From positions 62,001 to 126,000 of the forward strand of contig NZ_CP083664.1 of the NCBI RefSeq assembly GCF_020097815.1: a stretch of 64,000 bases of DNA, written 5' to 3'. This document shows, one piece after another, positions 31,354 through 37,385 of this stretch (within the stretch, counting starts at the first letter, position 1; every line of letters begins with the position of its first letter). Under the pieces are notes generated by a model that saw only the letters and a list, made by a program, of their open reading frames with translations, searched no databases and was not told the origin of the DNA. Source of the stretch: Haloprofundus salinisoli (GTDB taxonomy: Archaea > Halobacteriota > Halobacteria > Halobacteriales > Haloferacaceae). The translations under genes were made by a program, and so were the position numbers.

Positions 31354-31610
31354 AGTGGCTTTCCCCGAGTCACGCTACGAGTAGTCAGGATATGTAGGCG
31401 ACTAGTGATTCTCGACCAGTCGTTGACCGGCGCGCAGCCGATGAACTGAGGTCATCGAGCGCTTGAAAAATCACCAGATGACTATCTGACCTTCGCAGCC
31501 GTGTAGACGTTCATTATGGCCGTTAATTAGAGGCCCATTCTACCAAGGTGAGGAACTGAGACGAAGAACGGTCTTATTATCCGAAATGCGAGGGCTGTAG
31601 TCGAGCTCAA
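31354..31610. other. Divergent intergenic region, no gene seen
   Basis: The region separates the AhpD-like operon (minus) from the Orc-like operon (plus). I see no gene. It should contain the promoter of the minus operon; no clear palindrome was found. The plus-strand control elements at 31,611-31,650 are listed separately. Confidence 0.45.
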
Positions 31611-31650
31611 GTATCGGAACTATCGGAACTCACCCTGTTCCGTTTATTAC
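31611..31650 (+). promoter_or_regulatory. Promoter and repeated CGGAA motif before the Orc-like gene
   Basis: GTATCGGAACTATCGGAACT (31,611-31,630) is two tandem ATCGGAACT units. It is followed by CACCCTGTTCCG, so the second unit also forms a CGGAAC/GTTCCG inverted repeat. A TATA-like TTTATTAC lies at 31,643-31,650, 28-35 bases before the ATG, as for a leaderless transcript. A very similar arrangement stands before the next gene at 32,698, which suggests one regulator for both. Confidence 0.6.
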
Positions 31651-31677
31651 GGCTCCCGAGGAAGAGTCCGGATAAGT

Positions 31678-32691
31678 ATGATCAACGATGCTCGCGTGCT
31701 GCAACCCGAGTTCATCCCTCAGGAGATCGAGCATCGCAATCAAGAGACGAACGTCCTCTCGAACGCGCTCAAACCAATCATGGACGGCCAACCGGGGGAA
31801 ACTTCACTCCTGCTTGGTCCATCTGGTGCCGGAAAAACGTGCATCGCGCAGTTCACCGTCGAACGGCTCCGAGAGAACGTCCTCGACATCAACACCCAAT
31901 ACATCAACTGTTGGCAGGACTACACCCGATTTCGAGTCCTCTACCGTATCCTCGAAGGGATAGACCAGACGGTAGATATCCACCGGCGTTCCACACCACG
32001 GGACGAATTGCTAACTCGACTTCAGGAGTACGACGGTCCGCACTACGTCGTCATTCTCGACGAAGTCGACCAACTCGAAGACAAAAGCGTCCTCTACGAC
32101 CTCTATCGCACGCGTAAGATTACGATGATACTCATCGCCAACCGCGAAGAGGACCTGTTCTCGATGTTCGACGAACGCTTGACGAGCCGCCTGCACGGGA
32201 GTGTCCGGGTTGAATTTGAGAGGTACCACCTTGACGAACTTGTCGTGATTCTGGCTGCGCGAGCACGCTGGGGACTATCGGAAAGCGCTATCGGAAATCA
32301 GCAACTCGCTCTCATCGCCGACGCGGCAGCCGGTGATGCGAGAATTGGGATTAGCATTCTCCGCAACGCTGCGCGCCTCGCAGATCAGCAATCTCTCGAC
32401 ACAATCTCGAACGAAATCGTCCATGAGGCCGTCCCCGACGGACGCGAGGAGATTCGGCGCTCGACCGCAGACAAATTACGTGAGCATCAGCGCGTCCTCT
32501 ACGAGATTTTGCTCGATTCTGGCGAGATGAGTCCGGGCGATCTCTACGACGAATACTGCGAGCACGTCGACGAACCGAAGACGAAGCGAACCGTCCGCAA
32601 CTACCTCCAGAAGATGGAGCAGTACCGACTCGTCGTCGCCCAAGGCGAGAAGCGTGCGCGGACCTACAGACCTCGGAAAGAAGCGTCCTGA
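31678..32691 (+). CDS. Orc1/Cdc6-family AAA+ ATPase
   Basis: A 337-residue Orc1/Cdc6-type protein, shorter than typical haloarchaeal initiators. It starts with the family pattern (MINDARVLQPEFIPQEIEHR). Walker A is GPSGAGKT (47-54), Walker B VVILDEVD (124-131) and sensor 1 ILIAN (about 151-155), with DERLTSRL after it. The C-terminal winged-helix region (about 255-337) would bind DNA. It heads an operon with a RecA-like protein, a small protein and a PolB2-type polymerase. A role in the DNA damage response or as a regulator, as proposed for Orc1-2 in Sulfolobales, is as likely as origin firing. No classical origin repeat set is seen next to it. Confidence 0.88.
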   Translation: MINDARVLQPEFIPQEIEHRNQETNVLSNALKPIMDGQPGETSLLLGPSGAGKTCIAQFTVERLRENVLDINTQYINCWQDYTRFRVLYRILEGIDQTVDIHRRSTPRDELLTRLQEYDGPHYVVILDEVDQLEDKSVLYDLYRTRKITMILIANREEDLFSMFDERLTSRLHGSVRVEFERYHLDELVVILAARARWGLSESAIGNQQLALIADAAAGDARIGISILRNAARLADQQSLDTISNEIVHEAVPDGREEIRRSTADKLREHQRVLYEILLDSGEMSPGDLYDEYCEHVDEPKTKRTVRNYLQKMEQYRLVVAQGEKRARTYRPRKEAS

Positions 32692-32697
32692 AACGCG

Positions 32698-32731
32698 GTA
32701 TCGGAATTTCGGAAACACCCCTGTCTTCATT
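32698..32731 (+). promoter_or_regulatory. Second CGGAA-motif promoter before the RecA-like gene
   Basis: GTATCGGAATTTCGGAAACA starts at 32,698 and continues CCCCTGT. It matches the element at 31,611 except for a few substitutions and one missing base. CTTCATTATG (32,723-32,732) is the TATA-like box, 30-39 bases before ATG 32,762. The distance from the motif to the ATG is 64 bases here and 67 before the Orc-like gene. This supports 32,762 as the true start. Confidence 0.55.
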
Positions 32732-32761
32732 ATGACACAAAGCCGCATAGGTTCTCCTGTA

Positions 32762-33442
32762 ATGTACCAACAGACCGGCGACCAACCAATACTCCCGACG
32801 CTACAGGAGGGGATGACACTCTTACAGGCGAATCGAAGAGCGACAGGTGCGTTGCAGTCACTCGTCCTTGACCATCTCCTCTTAGAGGACGGAGACGCAG
32901 TCTGGGTCGACGCTCGTGGAAACGGAACGACGCAGCAACTGTGTCGAATCGCACCGAATATGAGAGTACTCGACCGAGTTCACATCGCTCGAGGCTTCAC
33001 TCCGTGGCAGCACTACAGCCTGCTGACGGACCTTCCCGATCACATCACAGAGGACACGTCGCTCGTCGTGCTTCCGGAGTTCGACTGGTTCTACCGGACT
33101 GATGACCTCCGGCGCGGCGAAGGCGAGCGAATGTTCTCGGAGGCAGTTTCGCGAGTCATGGAGTTGCTTAACGATGTCGACGTACCGGTTCTCCTCACGC
33201 TGTCGGAAAGAGACGACTTCACCGAACCACTCCACGACGTGATTTCCGAAACGGTGGAGTGTGAGCTGACCAAGTATGGACCACGGTTCTCGGGCGACTC
33301 GTTCGATACGCTCGTTTATCCGCTCGACAACGGGCTAGTCCAGACGACGATTGCGTACTGGAACACTATCCTCGCGGCACGTCACCCAGCTGTCGTTCCG
33401 ACGACTACGTCTTCGGAGGTGACCACCGTTGGGGCGAACTAA
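32762..33442 (+). CDS. RecA/RadA-fold-like protein without a clear Walker A
   Basis: The 226-residue protein is unnamed, but its strand order looks like a degraded RecA-type ATPase core: LVLDHLLLEDGDAVWVDARGNGTTQQL at the usual P-loop position with no GxxxxGKT, TSLVVLPEFDWFY in the Walker B position, and VPVLLTLSERDDF. I chose ATG 32,762 (MYQQTGDQPILPT) from its spacing to the conserved upstream motif. The next upstream ATG at 32,732 lies inside the TATA-like box. It overlaps the following gene by 14 bases. Position and fold suggest a polymerase accessory, like ImuA-type proteins in bacterial mutagenesis cassettes; this is inference. Confidence 0.65.
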   Translation: MYQQTGDQPILPTLQEGMTLLQANRRATGALQSLVLDHLLLEDGDAVWVDARGNGTTQQLCRIAPNMRVLDRVHIARGFTPWQHYSLLTDLPDHITEDTSLVVLPEFDWFYRTDDLRRGEGERMFSEAVSRVMELLNDVDVPVLLTLSERDDFTEPLHDVISETVECELTKYGPRFSGDSFDTLVYPLDNGLVQTTIAYWNTILAARHPAVVPTTTSSEVTTVGAN

Positions 33443-33689
33443 CCCGACGCACCGTGATTTGATTCGTGCGACCGAGAGCCGATGGTCGGACTATCGGCGT
33501 GCGCTCAGACACGACGATCAGCCGCATTACGACCGGTTGTTCGACCACGCTCGTGCTCACGCGGACGCCGGTGGGTATCTCAACCACCAGTTCGTCGAGA
33601 TTCCGATTCTCATCTCCATCGCGCTCGAGCAGGAGAAGCGGATTACGTCGCTTGAGAATCGAATGGACGTCGACGAATTTGGCGAGTGA
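33429..33689 (+). CDS. Small cassette protein with TTG start
   Basis: An 86-residue acidic and Arg/His-rich protein of unknown function, helical in appearance (TESRWSDYRRALRHDDQPHYDRLFDHA, IALEQEKRITSLENRMD). The start is TTG at 33,429, decided by a strong Shine-Dalgarno sequence GGAGGTGA at 33,415-33,422, six bases upstream. There is no other start before the C-terminus. It overlaps the RecA-like gene and ends three bases before the polymerase ATG, so it is embedded in the operon. A polymerase- or RecA-binding adaptor is possible but unproven. Confidence 0.75.
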   Translation: MGRTNPTHRDLIRATESRWSDYRRALRHDDQPHYDRLFDHARAHADAGGYLNHQFVEIPILISIALEQEKRITSLENRMDVDEFGE

Positions 33690-33692
33690 CCC

Positions 33693-35804
33693 ATGCCGTT
33701 CAAAATCGACTATCTCGATGGTGACGTACTCGAGTGGTCACTGACGCCCGGCGGTGCGGAGTTCACTCGAAACGCGTCATACGAGCCAACGATATACATC
33801 TCGGCACACGGCGATGGCGATCTCAAGGAGGTCTCGGAGGTACTCCGTCGACACCCGAAGGTCACACTCGCGCACCTGGTGGAGGAGAGAGTCGGGTTCA
33901 GACACGACCCAGAACCGGTACTTCGTGTCGATGTTGTCGACTTGGATGCAGTTACTGATGTTGCACACCAAGTCAGGGGATGGGGAAAACCCGGTGAGTA
34001 CCGGTGCTACAACGTCGATTTGAGCCGAGAGTTCAGATACTGTCTCGAGGAGGGCGTGTCGCCGATACCCGATGGCGATCTCTCAGTTCTCGATGTTTCT
34101 ATCCCAGAGCCTCAACTCTCGAGTGGACAGATCACGACGGTCGAGCTAGGAGACGAGACGGTGAGCGGAACGCAGGTGGATATCATCGAGGCGGTGAGCA
34201 ACCATCTCAGCGCTGACGACCCGGATGTCCTCCTGCTCAACACGAGTGAGGTAATCCCGAAATTGTACCAACAAGCCGAGCGGGTGGGGAATCATGAGTT
34301 TGAGTTAGGGCGTCTCTCCGGTTGGCAACAACTCGCGGGAAAGTCGACGTACGCGAGTTACGGGAAAGTTGGCCACTCGCCAGCGCGGTACAACCTCCCG
34401 GGTCGGATAATCATCGACCGGTCGAATACGTTCATGTGGAACCAGACGAACCTCGACGGCTGTCTCGACCTCGTCGAACGGTCGGGGAAACCGCTTCAGG
34501 AGTTAGCCTGGTCTTCTATTGGGAACATCCTTACAGCGATTCAGATTCGAGAGGCGCGGAAACGAGGTGTGTTGGTTCCGTGGAACTCCTGGCGGCACGA
34601 GCAGTTCAAGACGATGCGCCAGCTGCACGAGGCAGATCGCGGCGGATTTACATTCGCACCGAAGGTGGGTTTCCACGAGGACGTCTACGAACTCGACTTC
34701 TCGTCGTTGTACCCGAACATCATCGTCACTCGCAACGTGAGTCCCGAGAAGATTCGCTGTGAGTGTCACGCTGGTCGAGAGGACGTACCGGGACTGGGTT
34801 ACTGTATCTGCGACGAGCGAGGGTACCTCCCGGACGTCCTTGAACCGCTCATCGAAGACCGCGACGCTATCAAAGCCGAGCTTCAAGAGATAGACGACCC
34901 AGAGCGAGAGAAAGCGTTAGAGGGTCGATCGAACGCGATCAAGTGGATTCTCGTCTCTTGCTTCGGGTATCAGGGATTTTCGAACGCGAAGTTCGGGCGT
35001 ATCGAGGGCCACGAGGCGATCAACGCGTTCGCTCGAGAGATTCTCCTCGACTCGAAGCAGATATTCGAGCAGAACGGATGGGAAATCGTCCACGGGATCG
35101 TCGACAGTATCTGGGTCCGGCGGGTTGAGAACGAGGCGCAGACCCCGCTCGACGAACTCGCCGAGCAAATCACTCGCGAGGTAGGGATACGATTGGAATA
35201 CGAGGCAGCATACGATTGGATTGCATTCGTCCCGATGCGCGATAGCGACGCTGGCGCGTTGACGAAATATTTCGGAAAGATCGCCGACGAGGACGAGTAC
35301 AAGTATCGGGGTATTGAGTGCCGACAGCGTAGTACGCCGGCGTTCATCGAAGAAGCGCAGAAGGATTTGGTTCGAGTCCTTGACGAGCATCGAGAACCAG
35401 AACGCGTCTGCGACCGACTGAAACTGTGGGTTGAGCGCCTTCGGCGTGGCAGTGTTGAGCTGGAAAATCTTCTGATTGACAATCGAGTCTCAAAGAACGC
35501 CGGCGAGTATTCGCAGTACACACGGAACGCGGCAGCACTCGAACGGGCCGAAGGACACGGCCTCAGTCGAAGTCCAGGTGAGAGCGTTTCCTACGTCGTC
35601 GTCGACGACGAGAAACGGTCGAGAGACCGGGTGGCGTTGGCACATGAGGAACCCTTGGAGTACGATGCCGACTTCTACGAGACGCTACTCCTCCGTGCGG
35701 CGGAGAGCGTCCTCTCGCCGCTCGGCTGGCGTCAGTCCGCTATCGAGAACGCGCTCGCAGGCTCGCAGGATTCGAAGCTCTCGGCGTTCGAGAGCTGGGG
35801 ATAG
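33693..35804 (+). CDS. polB2: Family B DNA polymerase, PolB2-like with altered catalytic motif
   Basis: The 703-residue polymerase is shorter than replicative PolB. Motif A is DFSSLYPNII (335-344) with the metal-binding Asp335. Motif B is KWILVSCFGY (417-426). Motif C reads HGIVDS (467-472) where active enzymes have YGDTDS, so the first Asp is replaced by Ile and only Asp471 remains. The N-terminal exonuclease domain is degenerate: at about 132-138 the DIE motif is VLDVSIP, and exo II and III acidic residues are not evident. This matches the archaeal PolB2 group first described as inactivated; a Sulfolobus member was later reported active in lesion bypass. It lies last in the cassette. Confidence 0.85.
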   Translation: MPFKIDYLDGDVLEWSLTPGGAEFTRNASYEPTIYISAHGDGDLKEVSEVLRRHPKVTLAHLVEERVGFRHDPEPVLRVDVVDLDAVTDVAHQVRGWGKPGEYRCYNVDLSREFRYCLEEGVSPIPDGDLSVLDVSIPEPQLSSGQITTVELGDETVSGTQVDIIEAVSNHLSADDPDVLLLNTSEVIPKLYQQAERVGNHEFELGRLSGWQQLAGKSTYASYGKVGHSPARYNLPGRIIIDRSNTFMWNQTNLDGCLDLVERSGKPLQELAWSSIGNILTAIQIREARKRGVLVPWNSWRHEQFKTMRQLHEADRGGFTFAPKVGFHEDVYELDFSSLYPNIIVTRNVSPEKIRCECHAGREDVPGLGYCICDERGYLPDVLEPLIEDRDAIKAELQEIDDPEREKALEGRSNAIKWILVSCFGYQGFSNAKFGRIEGHEAINAFAREILLDSKQIFEQNGWEIVHGIVDSIWVRRVENEAQTPLDELAEQITREVGIRLEYEAAYDWIAFVPMRDSDAGALTKYFGKIADEDEYKYRGIECRQRSTPAFIEEAQKDLVRVLDEHREPERVCDRLKLWVERLRRGSVELENLLIDNRVSKNAGEYSQYTRNAAALERAEGHGLSRSPGESVSYVVVDDEKRSRDRVALAHEEPLEYDADFYETLLLRAAESVLSPLGWRQSAIENALAGSQDSKLSAFESWG

Positions 35805-35999
35805 ATGGATCGACTGATCACTGACGCCCGGGCGTTTCGATCGGGGTACGTCCCGCAAGAACTCTACCATCGAGAGGGGCAGATTGCTCAGCTCTCCTCG
35901 GCGCTCGGCATTCGCTGGGGTCACGTCAACTGCATGAGCGACTCCTCGAAGTCCGCGGTATTGCACGCTCTGACTAAGCACGCCGGTCGTGCTGCTTAC
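35805..35999 (+). pseudogene. Truncated Orc1/Cdc6-like gene lacking Walker A
   Basis: The ATG directly follows the polymerase stop. The first 33 residues (LITDARAFRSGYVPQELYHRE) match the start of the Orc-like protein at 31,678. The frame then jumps from SSALGIRWG straight to HVNCMSDSSKSAVLHAL, corresponding to YINCWQDYTRFRVLYRI, so about 45 residues with the P-loop are missing. The readable similarity stops near 35,999, where the convergent hydrolase gene ends; the open frame runs on to 36,137 as antisense. This is an internally deleted, 3'-truncated remnant of a duplicated Orc gene. Confidence 0.72.
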
Positions 36000-37385
36000 C
36001 TATGCCCGGTGGAGTCGCCAACGGTCGACGAACATTTCCATGCTATCGGTCGTCTGTTCGAACCTGACTGGTGTACGACTCCCATCAGGAGTGACAGTGT
36101 AGAATTCAAAATCTGTCGGATCGGTACTTTCGGGTAGCACGAGCAGTTTCTGTGTCGCGCGACCACTCCCGTACTCCACAGTCAACCCACCGGAGACACG
36201 GTCGACGGTTGCGGTTGTAATACCTCGGTACGACTCGTAATCGCCCGTCACCGCATCCAACTTGGTGTCGAGGCCGAACTGAGGGACAGCGTTTGTGGGG
36301 TCCTCACCCTGCACGATTGCCAGTATCGCCGGGCCGACGTTCATTGGGTGTACTTTCGGAGAGGTCGAGCACTGTAACACGACACCGACAGCTGCCTCTT
36401 CGAGGAATCCGAGATACGCAGTACATACTCCAATGGACCCACCATGTCCGATTAGCCGGTCGCCAACGAGGTCTGAAATCATCCAACCGCATCCGTAACG
36501 CTGTGTCTCCCCATTCAGATACTGCAATCTCGTTGAGGCTGGCTCGTGCAGTTCGGCGAGATTCTCCGACGAGAGTAGGTGGTTTCCCTCGAACTCCCCA
36601 CCGTTCATATTCATCCGAAGATAGTTCGACATTTCAGTGACCGAGCTGAGAAGTCCCCCAGGAGCATAGATTGTTTCGTCAAATGGGAACGACCCTGTCT
36701 CCAAACCTCCCTCTCCGTGGAAATAGGGTGTCATTCGGTCTTCTTGCTTCTCGAACGAGTCGGAGTCGAAAGTCGACCGAGTCATTCCGAGCGGCTCGAG
36801 AATCTGCTCCTGAACGTACTTCTCGTAGGACTTCCCGGTAATGCTCTCTACGACTTCGCCGAGGACGGTGTAGCCGGAATTGTAGTAGAAGAAGTGCTCA
36901 TCTTCGTCGGTGAGACGTTCTTCGAGTGCTCCCCACAGGTGTCTCGAAAAATCGCTGTCGCTTGTAATGGGCGAGGCGACTTCACCAGCCCCCATGAGAC
37001 GTGCGATGAGTACAGCAGCGCTTCCATCGCTTGGCAGTCCGGAGGTGTGAGTCAGCAATTGATGGATCGAAATTGGGTCTCCCGGTGCATCGGTGTAGCG
37101 GTCAACGTACTCACTAATGGGGTCTGTGAGCTCAAGTTCTCCATCCTCGGCGAGTTGCTGAATAGCCAAGGCGGTGAACGACTTCGTGATTGACCCGATC
37201 CCATAGAGTGTGTCGCTCGTCGACGGAAGATTCTCGGAGACATCACGGGCACCGAAGCCATCAGCATAAACGAGTTCGTCTCCCTTTACCAGAGCCAAGC
37301 TCGCACCAGGAATTCCATTGTCGTCCATCCAGTCGATGACGAACGATTCGACTGCCGCGCAGGTCGTACGGTCGATTGTTGGCAT
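36000..37385 (-). CDS. Serine beta-lactamase-like hydrolase / D-peptidase family
   Basis: A 461-residue class C beta-lactamase-fold protein. The active-site SxxK is GSITKSF (Ser65, Lys68), followed by the YxN motif FYYNSGY near residue 166 and the HGG motif IGHGGSIG in the second half. A C-terminal lipocalin-like extension (about 370-461) is present. No signal peptide is seen, so it is probably cytoplasmic. Family members include esterases, D-aminopeptidases and peptidoglycan-peptide hydrolases. Beside a dipeptidase, a D-amino-acid deacylase and a dipeptide epimerase, a D-peptidase role is attractive. Confidence 0.87.
   Translation of the reverse strand: MPTIDRTTCAAVESFVIDWMDDNGIPGASLALVKGDELVYADGFGARDVSENLPSTSDTLYGIGSITKSFTALAIQQLAEDGELELTDPISEYVDRYTDAPGDPISIHQLLTHTSGLPSDGSAAVLIARLMGAGEVASPITSDSDFSRHLWGALEERLTDEDEHFFYYNSGYTVLGEVVESITGKSYEKYVQEQILEPLGMTRSTFDSDSFEKQEDRMTPYFHGEGGLETGSFPFDETIYAPGGLLSSVTEMSNYLRMNMNGGEFEGNHLLSSENLAELHEPASTRLQYLNGETQRYGCGWMISDLVGDRLIGHGGSIGVCTAYLGFLEEAAVGVVLQCSTSPKVHPMNVGPAILAIVQGEDPTNAVPQFGLDTKLDAVTGDYESYRGITTATVDRVSGGLTVEYGSGRATQKLLVLPESTDPTDFEFYTVTPDGSRTPVRFEQTTDSMEMFVDRWRLHRA

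Follow-up and report, generated by a model that had tools for sequence, protein, structure and literature searches.

Genes at the locus

The genome of Haloprofundus salinisoli (3.42 Mb in three contigs) includes a secondary replicon of 356,276 bp (contig C2), of which a 64-kb stretch, the window, was analysed. The window carries a gene for an Orc1/Cdc6-family protein, followed by the genes for an inactivated RadA homologue (iRadA), a small protein of the PPB2 type and the B-family DNA polymerase PolB2 (Table 1). A first-pass annotation of the window had described four closely packed genes here, and all four open reading frames (ORFs) are intact, on one strand and placed as it had reported. The iRadA, PPB2 and polB2 genes overlap or abut one another. 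For iRadA, the ATG at 32762 is the most likely start codon, since 32734 is the last position of a promoter element and the same start is found in relatives. With this start a promoter gap of about 70 bp lies downstream of orc, and the locus would therefore have two promoters and not be one operon. The idea that regulator and effector genes are united in one unit holds insofar as the genes are adjacent and the last three overlap or abut; a single operon is ruled out by the element that precedes iRadA in this gap.

Table 1. Features at the orc and polB2 locus (window coordinates).
Feature	Position	Strand	Basis
Promoter element 1, before orc: tandem TCGGAA repeat, CCC, TTCCG-TTTATTA TATA-like box	31612..31648	+	Model R1, E=8.9e-8; aligned promoters of relatives
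orc: Orc1/Cdc6-family AAA+ protein, 337 aa, predicted regulator	31678..32691	+	TIGR02928, AAA_22, Cdc6_lid
Promoter element 2, before iRadA; 8-bp repeat spacing	32700..32734	+	Model R1, E=0.0025; Orc-trained matrix
iRadA: inactive RadA/Rad51 homologue, 226 aa, no P-loop	32762..33442	+	Profile, AlphaFold2 model
PPB2 (arCOG07300 type): small helical PolB2 partner, 86 aa, TTG start	33429..33689	+	MGRTNPTHRD N-terminus
PolB2: B-family polymerase, 703 aa	33693..35804	+	NF004418, 1074.5 bits
ORF fragment, first ~34 residues Orc-like, remainder unrelated	35805..36137	+	TIGR02928, E=0.0054, residues 6-34

The first-pass annotation had made its proposal depend on a gene order that is conserved in relatives. 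This was analysed at the window and at 59 further PolB2 loci, which comprise the top PolB2 matches and a hand sample of the group with about 58% identity and are not a random draw. The order was kept: PPB2 was present in 57 of the 60 loci, iRadA (above 200 bits) in 55, and in 32 a same-strand Orc of the cassette type lies upstream. These counts argue against a chance arrangement.

The mutasome proteins

The polymerase matched NF004418 with E=0 and was assigned to family B by PF00136 (E=4.7e-27). Its motif A reads DFSSLYP, of which the D and the P are kept in 60 of 60 aligned PolB2 sequences. Motif C is GIVDS in all 60, the first Asp of DxD being replaced. The window protein has its D-R motif at IIDRSNT. 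At the C-terminus (QDSKLSAFESW in the window) an LxxF is found, a hydrophobic residue with an aromatic residue three positions on, which resembles a PCNA-interacting peptide without the canonical QxxLxxFF. The partner protein PPB2 begins with the MGRT arm, which 55 of the 57 PPB2 ORFs have in the form [MVL]GRT.

When the single iRadA sequence was searched, the Rad51 match was weak (E=0.0017, under the gathering cut-off). A profile of 14 sequences searched against the PDB found Rad51, RadB and RadA chains, with Rad51 as the best match (E=3.6e-8). The AlphaFold2 model had a pLDDT (predicted local distance difference test) of 75.9 and a pTM (predicted template modelling score) of 0.75, with residues 1-8 and 209-226 below 50. 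It matched Rad51, Dmc1 and RadA chains with Z up to 17.6 and a root-mean-square deviation of 3.3 over 182 aligned residues (Rad51). The P-loop GxxxxGK[ST] was found in none of 55 iRadA homologues. The protein that had been noticed as RecA-like in fold and devoid of an evident P-loop is thus an inactivated RadA. From the altered DxD, the MGRT arm, the predicted Rad51 fold and the missing P-loop we conclude that iRadA, PPB2 and PolB2 are, as judged by motifs and model, the PolB2 mutasome.

A bacterial cassette had been suggested as an analogue, ImuA-ImuB-DnaE2, in which a family C polymerase is combined with a Y-family-like subunit. In both, an error-prone polymerase is accompanied by a RecA-like accessory protein. 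They differ in the polymerase, which is of family B here (PF00136, NF004418) and of family C in DnaE2, and a relationship is ruled out.

The association of PolB2 with an inactivated RadA and arCOG07300, and of an arORC2 gene with many euryarchaeal neighbourhoods of this kind, is described in passages of Makarova 2014 (PMC4104785). In passages of Timinskas 2025 (PMC11791011), iRadA and PPB2 are named, a pentamer (PolB2:iRadA:3 PPB2) is modelled and the mutasome is compared with Pol V; the first Asp of DxD is reported to be gone in most PolB2, and orc1/cdc6 genes in archaea and lexA genes in bacteria are enriched near polB2. The gene order iRadA-PPB2-PolB2, the lost Asp, the MGRT arm, the RadA fold without P-loop and the orc1/cdc6 neighbour all recur in the window. 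The first-pass annotation was right to join a PolB2-type mutasome to an Orc gene, and at the level of the genes this trio with an orc neighbour is not new. According to parts of two further reports, polB2 can be deleted in Haloferax volcanii and in Halobacterium (PMC7776575, PMC1906834).

The Orc protein matched TIGR02928 with E=2.4e-51 and 174.7 bits, slightly below the curated cut-off of 181.3. AAA_22 and Cdc6_lid were the Pfam domains found; the winged-helix domain Cdc6_C was weak (E=0.059), and the C-terminal winged helix is short. Both Walker motifs of the window protein are intact, A as GPSGAGKT and B as VILDEVD. Of 33 cassette Orcs, all have Walker A and 32 have the Walker B pattern, and by these motifs Orc is an intact AAA+ protein. 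Its nearest solved relative is Cdc6 homolog 1 (2qby_A, E=4e-21).

A promoter element shared by orc and iRadA

An element of about 37 bp, TATCGGAA-N2-TATCGGAA-N5-CCC-N3-TTCCGTTTAT, precedes both orc and iRadA. The window sequence is TATCGGAACTATCGGAACTCACCCTGTTCCGTTTATTA upstream of orc and TATCGGAATTTCGGAAACACCCCTGTCTTCATTATGA upstream of iRadA, and the elements end 29 nt and 27 nt, respectively, before the start codons. The same design is found before orc and iRadA in distant haloarchaea: a pair of TCGGAA-like half-sites with a spacing of 8 or 9 bp, CCC and a TATA-like box. In most cases 20-30 bp separate the end of the element from the start codon, a distance that suits a leaderless transcript.

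Since a pattern search in the window alone with 3 mismatches was no better than chance, a model with controls was used. A matrix was built from the promoters of 33 Orc genes, each locus being omitted from training when it was itself scored, and the control windows were taken from the same locus, on one strand only. This Orc-trained matrix ranked the iRadA upstream region over every control window in 40 of 55 loci, and at the window locus the iRadA element scored over all 78 control windows. Most of the 15 failures belong to a group in which the iRadA ORF is longer at the N-terminus. When the whole 3.42-Mb genome was searched with the promoter model R1, the two best matches were the two cassette promoters (Table 1); the third and fourth overlap each other, at a degenerate copy that lies downstream of another Orc gene. 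A bacterial promoter scan by sequence alone was uninformative, as expected for an archaeal host, and Rfam gave no match for the window. As far as we searched, the literature on haloarchaeal Orc regulons contains no description of the element shared by Orc and mutasome or of its apparent regulon, and both appear to be new. In the passages covered of PMC11791011 and PMC4104785, neighbourhood enrichment alone is reported, whereas here Orc and iRadA share a promoter element that also occurs at other genes.

The second Orc gene of this genome (L092:7830-9035, corresponding to G000:C2:245830-247034) encodes an intact protein of the same subfamily that is 66% identical. The degenerate element lies just downstream of it, and no iRadA gene follows. 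From its sequence, this locus is a decayed second cassette.

Distribution among haloarchaeal genomes

Sites matching R1 at E<=0.001 were found in 113 of 391 haloarchaeal genomes. With a control model for which the training sequences were written backwards, the number was 0 of 391. Co-occurrence was analysed in 361 genomes, taken as G000-G360, an assignment consistent with their number and with the handles listed; the lists were compiled by hand. Sites were present in 91 of the 210 genomes with the Orc subfamily versus 11 of the 151 without it (odds ratio 9.7). For site and PolB2 the odds ratio was 2.6. Among genomes lacking PolB2, a site was found in 15 of 35 with Orc versus 6 of 91 without. 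In nine genomes in which the cassette is not immediately preceded by the Orc gene (G155, G319, G045, G253, G260, G057, G085, G383 and G175), a site lies just upstream of Orc; in 7 of the 9, all except G260 and G085, the same search also found a site at the cassette.

Both sites are present on plasmid 1 of Halalkalicoccus jeotgali B3 (HACJB3_RS16185 to RS16170), and further cassettes were found in Halegenticoccus and Haladaptatus species; many cassettes are plasmid-borne. Halobacterium NRC-1 has no adjacent trio and a single site 29-58 bp upstream of polB2. Among 20 PolB2 loci from the rest of the phylum, a cassette Orc adjoining PolB2 was found in none (E<=1e-6), and R1 sites were likewise absent from these 20. 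The arrangement of Orc plus operator therefore looks like a haloarchaeal addition to the mutasome genes.

Orc as a candidate regulator of the mutasome

The shared element and the co-occurrence of site and Orc suggest that the Orc paralogue controls its own gene and serves as the dedicated regulator of the PolB2 translesion mutasome, LexA-like in its role. We consider this rather probable, and in outline it is what the first-pass annotation had proposed for the Orc protein. Three steps of this reading are inferred: binding of the element by Orc, activation and not repression as the effect, and DNA damage as the signal. DNA damage would raise or switch Orc, with the ATP state as a candidate trigger. 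Orc would then bind the tandem TCGGAA half-sites just upstream of the TFB recognition element (BRE) and TATA box of orc and iRadA, and would activate its own gene together with iRadA-PPB2-polB2, such that regulator and mutasome rise together. The iRadA protein and the PPB2 arm would dock PolB2 on stalled primer ends, where the mutasome would perform error-prone primer extension past the lesions.

The best-characterised archaeal damage regulator, Orc1-2, comes from the Sulfolobales. It is likewise an Orc1/Cdc6 protein with intact Walker motifs, and it is linked both to its own promoter and to a polB2 operon that is induced by damage. Passages of PMC9738581 describe it as a damage-response regulator that acts at promoters through the box ANTTTC, the DNA damage-responsive element (DDRE), and for these relatives PolB2 mutagenesis and control by Orc1-2 are known from the parts of the literature covered. 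The two systems differ in the box, which is a tandem TCGGAA here, and for the haloarchaeal Orc a damage response is a prediction. Bacterial PolB2 operons under LexA and SOS control (PMC11791011, PMC4104785) also have a regulator gene beside the mutasome, and in the haloarchaea a candidate operator is found at both, and at nucleases and integrases in addition. Here the regulator would be an AAA+ Orc and not a LexA protease, and derepression by self-cleavage is not expected.

Several observations weigh against Orc as a damage regulator. The conserved core of the element contains no ANTTTC. In two published ultraviolet (UV) array studies of Halobacterium NRC-1, the passages searched leave polB2 unmentioned despite its upstream site. 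Searching the window's own genome with R1 gave no extra target, and the regulon there is seemingly the cassette alone. The TATA-like box lies within the model, so that part of the score is generic promoter signal. For the association of site and Orc, the Fisher p of 5e-15 is an overstatement because the genomes are related, and the co-occurrence is partly built in as the Orc gene bears its own site. At E<=0.001, 119 of the 210 Orc-positive genomes had no site; many of these site-less Orcs belong to a group of about 53-55% identity with one half-site in their promoters. The top columns in the covariation of Orc and operator include residue 308 as well as 325 and 327 of the C-terminal domain, which we read as putative recognition helix and wing, and this covariation is confounded by two operator classes that follow clades. 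Finally, haloarchaea may have two separate damage circuits, because the UV motif published for Halobacterium radA1, TTTCACTTTCA, contains ACTTTC and the cassette element is without ANTTTC. This radA1 motif, in the part of the literature covered, matches the Sulfolobus ANTTTC and differs from the cassette element.

Of the alternatives, the one that survives best is that an unlinked regulator binds the element and that Orc is merely one of its targets. For most Orcs of haloarchaea no regulatory role is known, and sites are still found at the promoters of relic Orc genes and in the 11 genomes scored as Orc-negative. Several of these 11 exceptions are decayed Orc loci that still bear the site (L245, L249, L270, L271, L277), though, and the site tracks the Orc subfamily better than PolB2 and is retained before Orc genes that lie away from the cassette. 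We therefore regard an unlinked regulator as unlikely.

The protein family, the location on a secondary replicon and the many plasmid-borne cassettes would also suit an Orc that initiates replication of a plasmid or of an element integrated in the genome, with the repeats as origin recognition boxes (ORBs) of a small origin and the mutasome genes as passengers or origin helpers. A role in replication initiation is proposed for the PolB2 neighbourhood genes in passages of PMC4104785. The haloarchaeal ORB-like element given in part of PMC3528665 (TAACAGCGGAAACAGTGGGG...) contains CGGAAAC, which is also the half-site core of the cassette element. When G/C runs and the element were examined in the region upstream of orc (31374-31677), however, no G-string was found, the longest G run being 3. 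In addition, the element stands at a fixed distance before the start codons of genes other than orc, including unlinked nuclease and integrase genes, and further Orcs are present on the same replicon as the cassette. This makes an initiator quite improbable. The shared CGGAAAC core and the missing G-string fit an Orc that has kept half-site recognition and lost its origin function.

That the element amounts to no more than BRE and TATA, a strong basal promoter without a specific regulator, would account for the generic part of the score and is hardly credible, since the most conserved columns include the second of the GGAA repeats and one C of the CCC, both upstream of the TATA box, and since the sites are few per genome across the 391 genomes and lie at few gene families rather than at promoters in general.

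With Orc as the favoured regulator, the proposal that paralogues of replication initiators are an archaeal counterpart of LexA is now directly testable, and the conserved operator is a concrete sequence to mutate in genetically tractable haloarchaea.

Other genes carrying the element

The class-wide sites listed (E up to about 4e-4) include 72 distinct further sites that had not yet been assigned to cassettes; a duplicate row (L244 = L269) had been dropped from 73. Of these, 37 lie before an Orc gene of the cassette type or a truncated copy, 11 before iRadA, 14 before a tyrosine integrase module and 10 at relics or unassigned positions, and these shares are not unbiased. With four more integrase sites from other loci, 18 tyrosine integrases carry the element. 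All 18 match one query at E<=3.3e-59, and the one checked against Pfam has Phage_int_SAM_1 (E=7.5e-11). They are solitary genes, distributed over 18 loci in 16 genomes (L208, L211, L214, L217, L238, L247, L253, L272, L282, L284, L288, L290, L293, L297, L301, L302, L303, L311), and possibly are mobile genes that respond to the damage regulator of their host. Between the element and the first ORF, the integrase module has a conserved leader of about 90 nt with two hairpins (L247:1562-1650, L272, L301, L293, L238 and others). In 15 sequences, 7 of the 22 predicted pairs have two-sided changes; Rfam gave no match for this leader RNA.

Two genomes, G075 (L155) and G275 (L221), have a gene for an RNase-H-like, DEDD-like nuclease of 215 aa that is divergent from Orc and has its own element. 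The PF13482 matches (E=1.4e-4 and 9.8e-4) are at or under the cut-off. It is possible that this protein is a separate 3'-5' nuclease for PolB2, whose exonuclease domain is thought to be dead. The gene for the large subunit of exonuclease VII is under the element in G260 only (L216, G260:C1:2912127-2912160; PF02601, E=2.6e-50), and a radical-SAM protein in the single genome G085 (PF04055, E=4e-10), where the start codon is 109 nt from the site.

We know of no LexA-type SOS system in archaea. The targets raise the prospect of an SOS-like haloarchaeal regulon in which an Orc1/Cdc6 paralogue replaces LexA and one operator serves the regulator, the mutasome, exonuclease VII, the DEDD-like nuclease, the radical-SAM repair-like protein and the mobile tyrosine integrases with their structured leader RNA. 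This wider regulon we put forward tentatively, as one that could hold about as well as fail, with the balance slightly towards failing. If it is true, the integrases have taken up the same operator, as prophages use LexA, and through their sites the mobility of genes would be coupled to damage of the genome.

Minor observations

The ORF fragment downstream of the cassette follows the stop codon of polB2 without a spacer, and its 3' end overlaps a serine-hydrolase-like ORF on the opposite strand (36000-37385). In a tblastn search against the loci of relatives, the matches were mostly to the Orc-like N-terminus, and no full-length second Orc downstream of the cassette was found in these loci. 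By these matches the fragment is probably an Orc remnant.

SRAP genes lie between Orc and iRadA in three loci, where one of the three proteins was checked against Pfam; SRAP genes near polB2 are also noted in a passage of PMC11791011. A 159-aa zinc-finger protein has a site in two Halegenticoccus genomes. In G233 (L204, L205), two paralogous pairs, each of a small zinc-ribbon and a small winged-helix-like protein, are each under the element.

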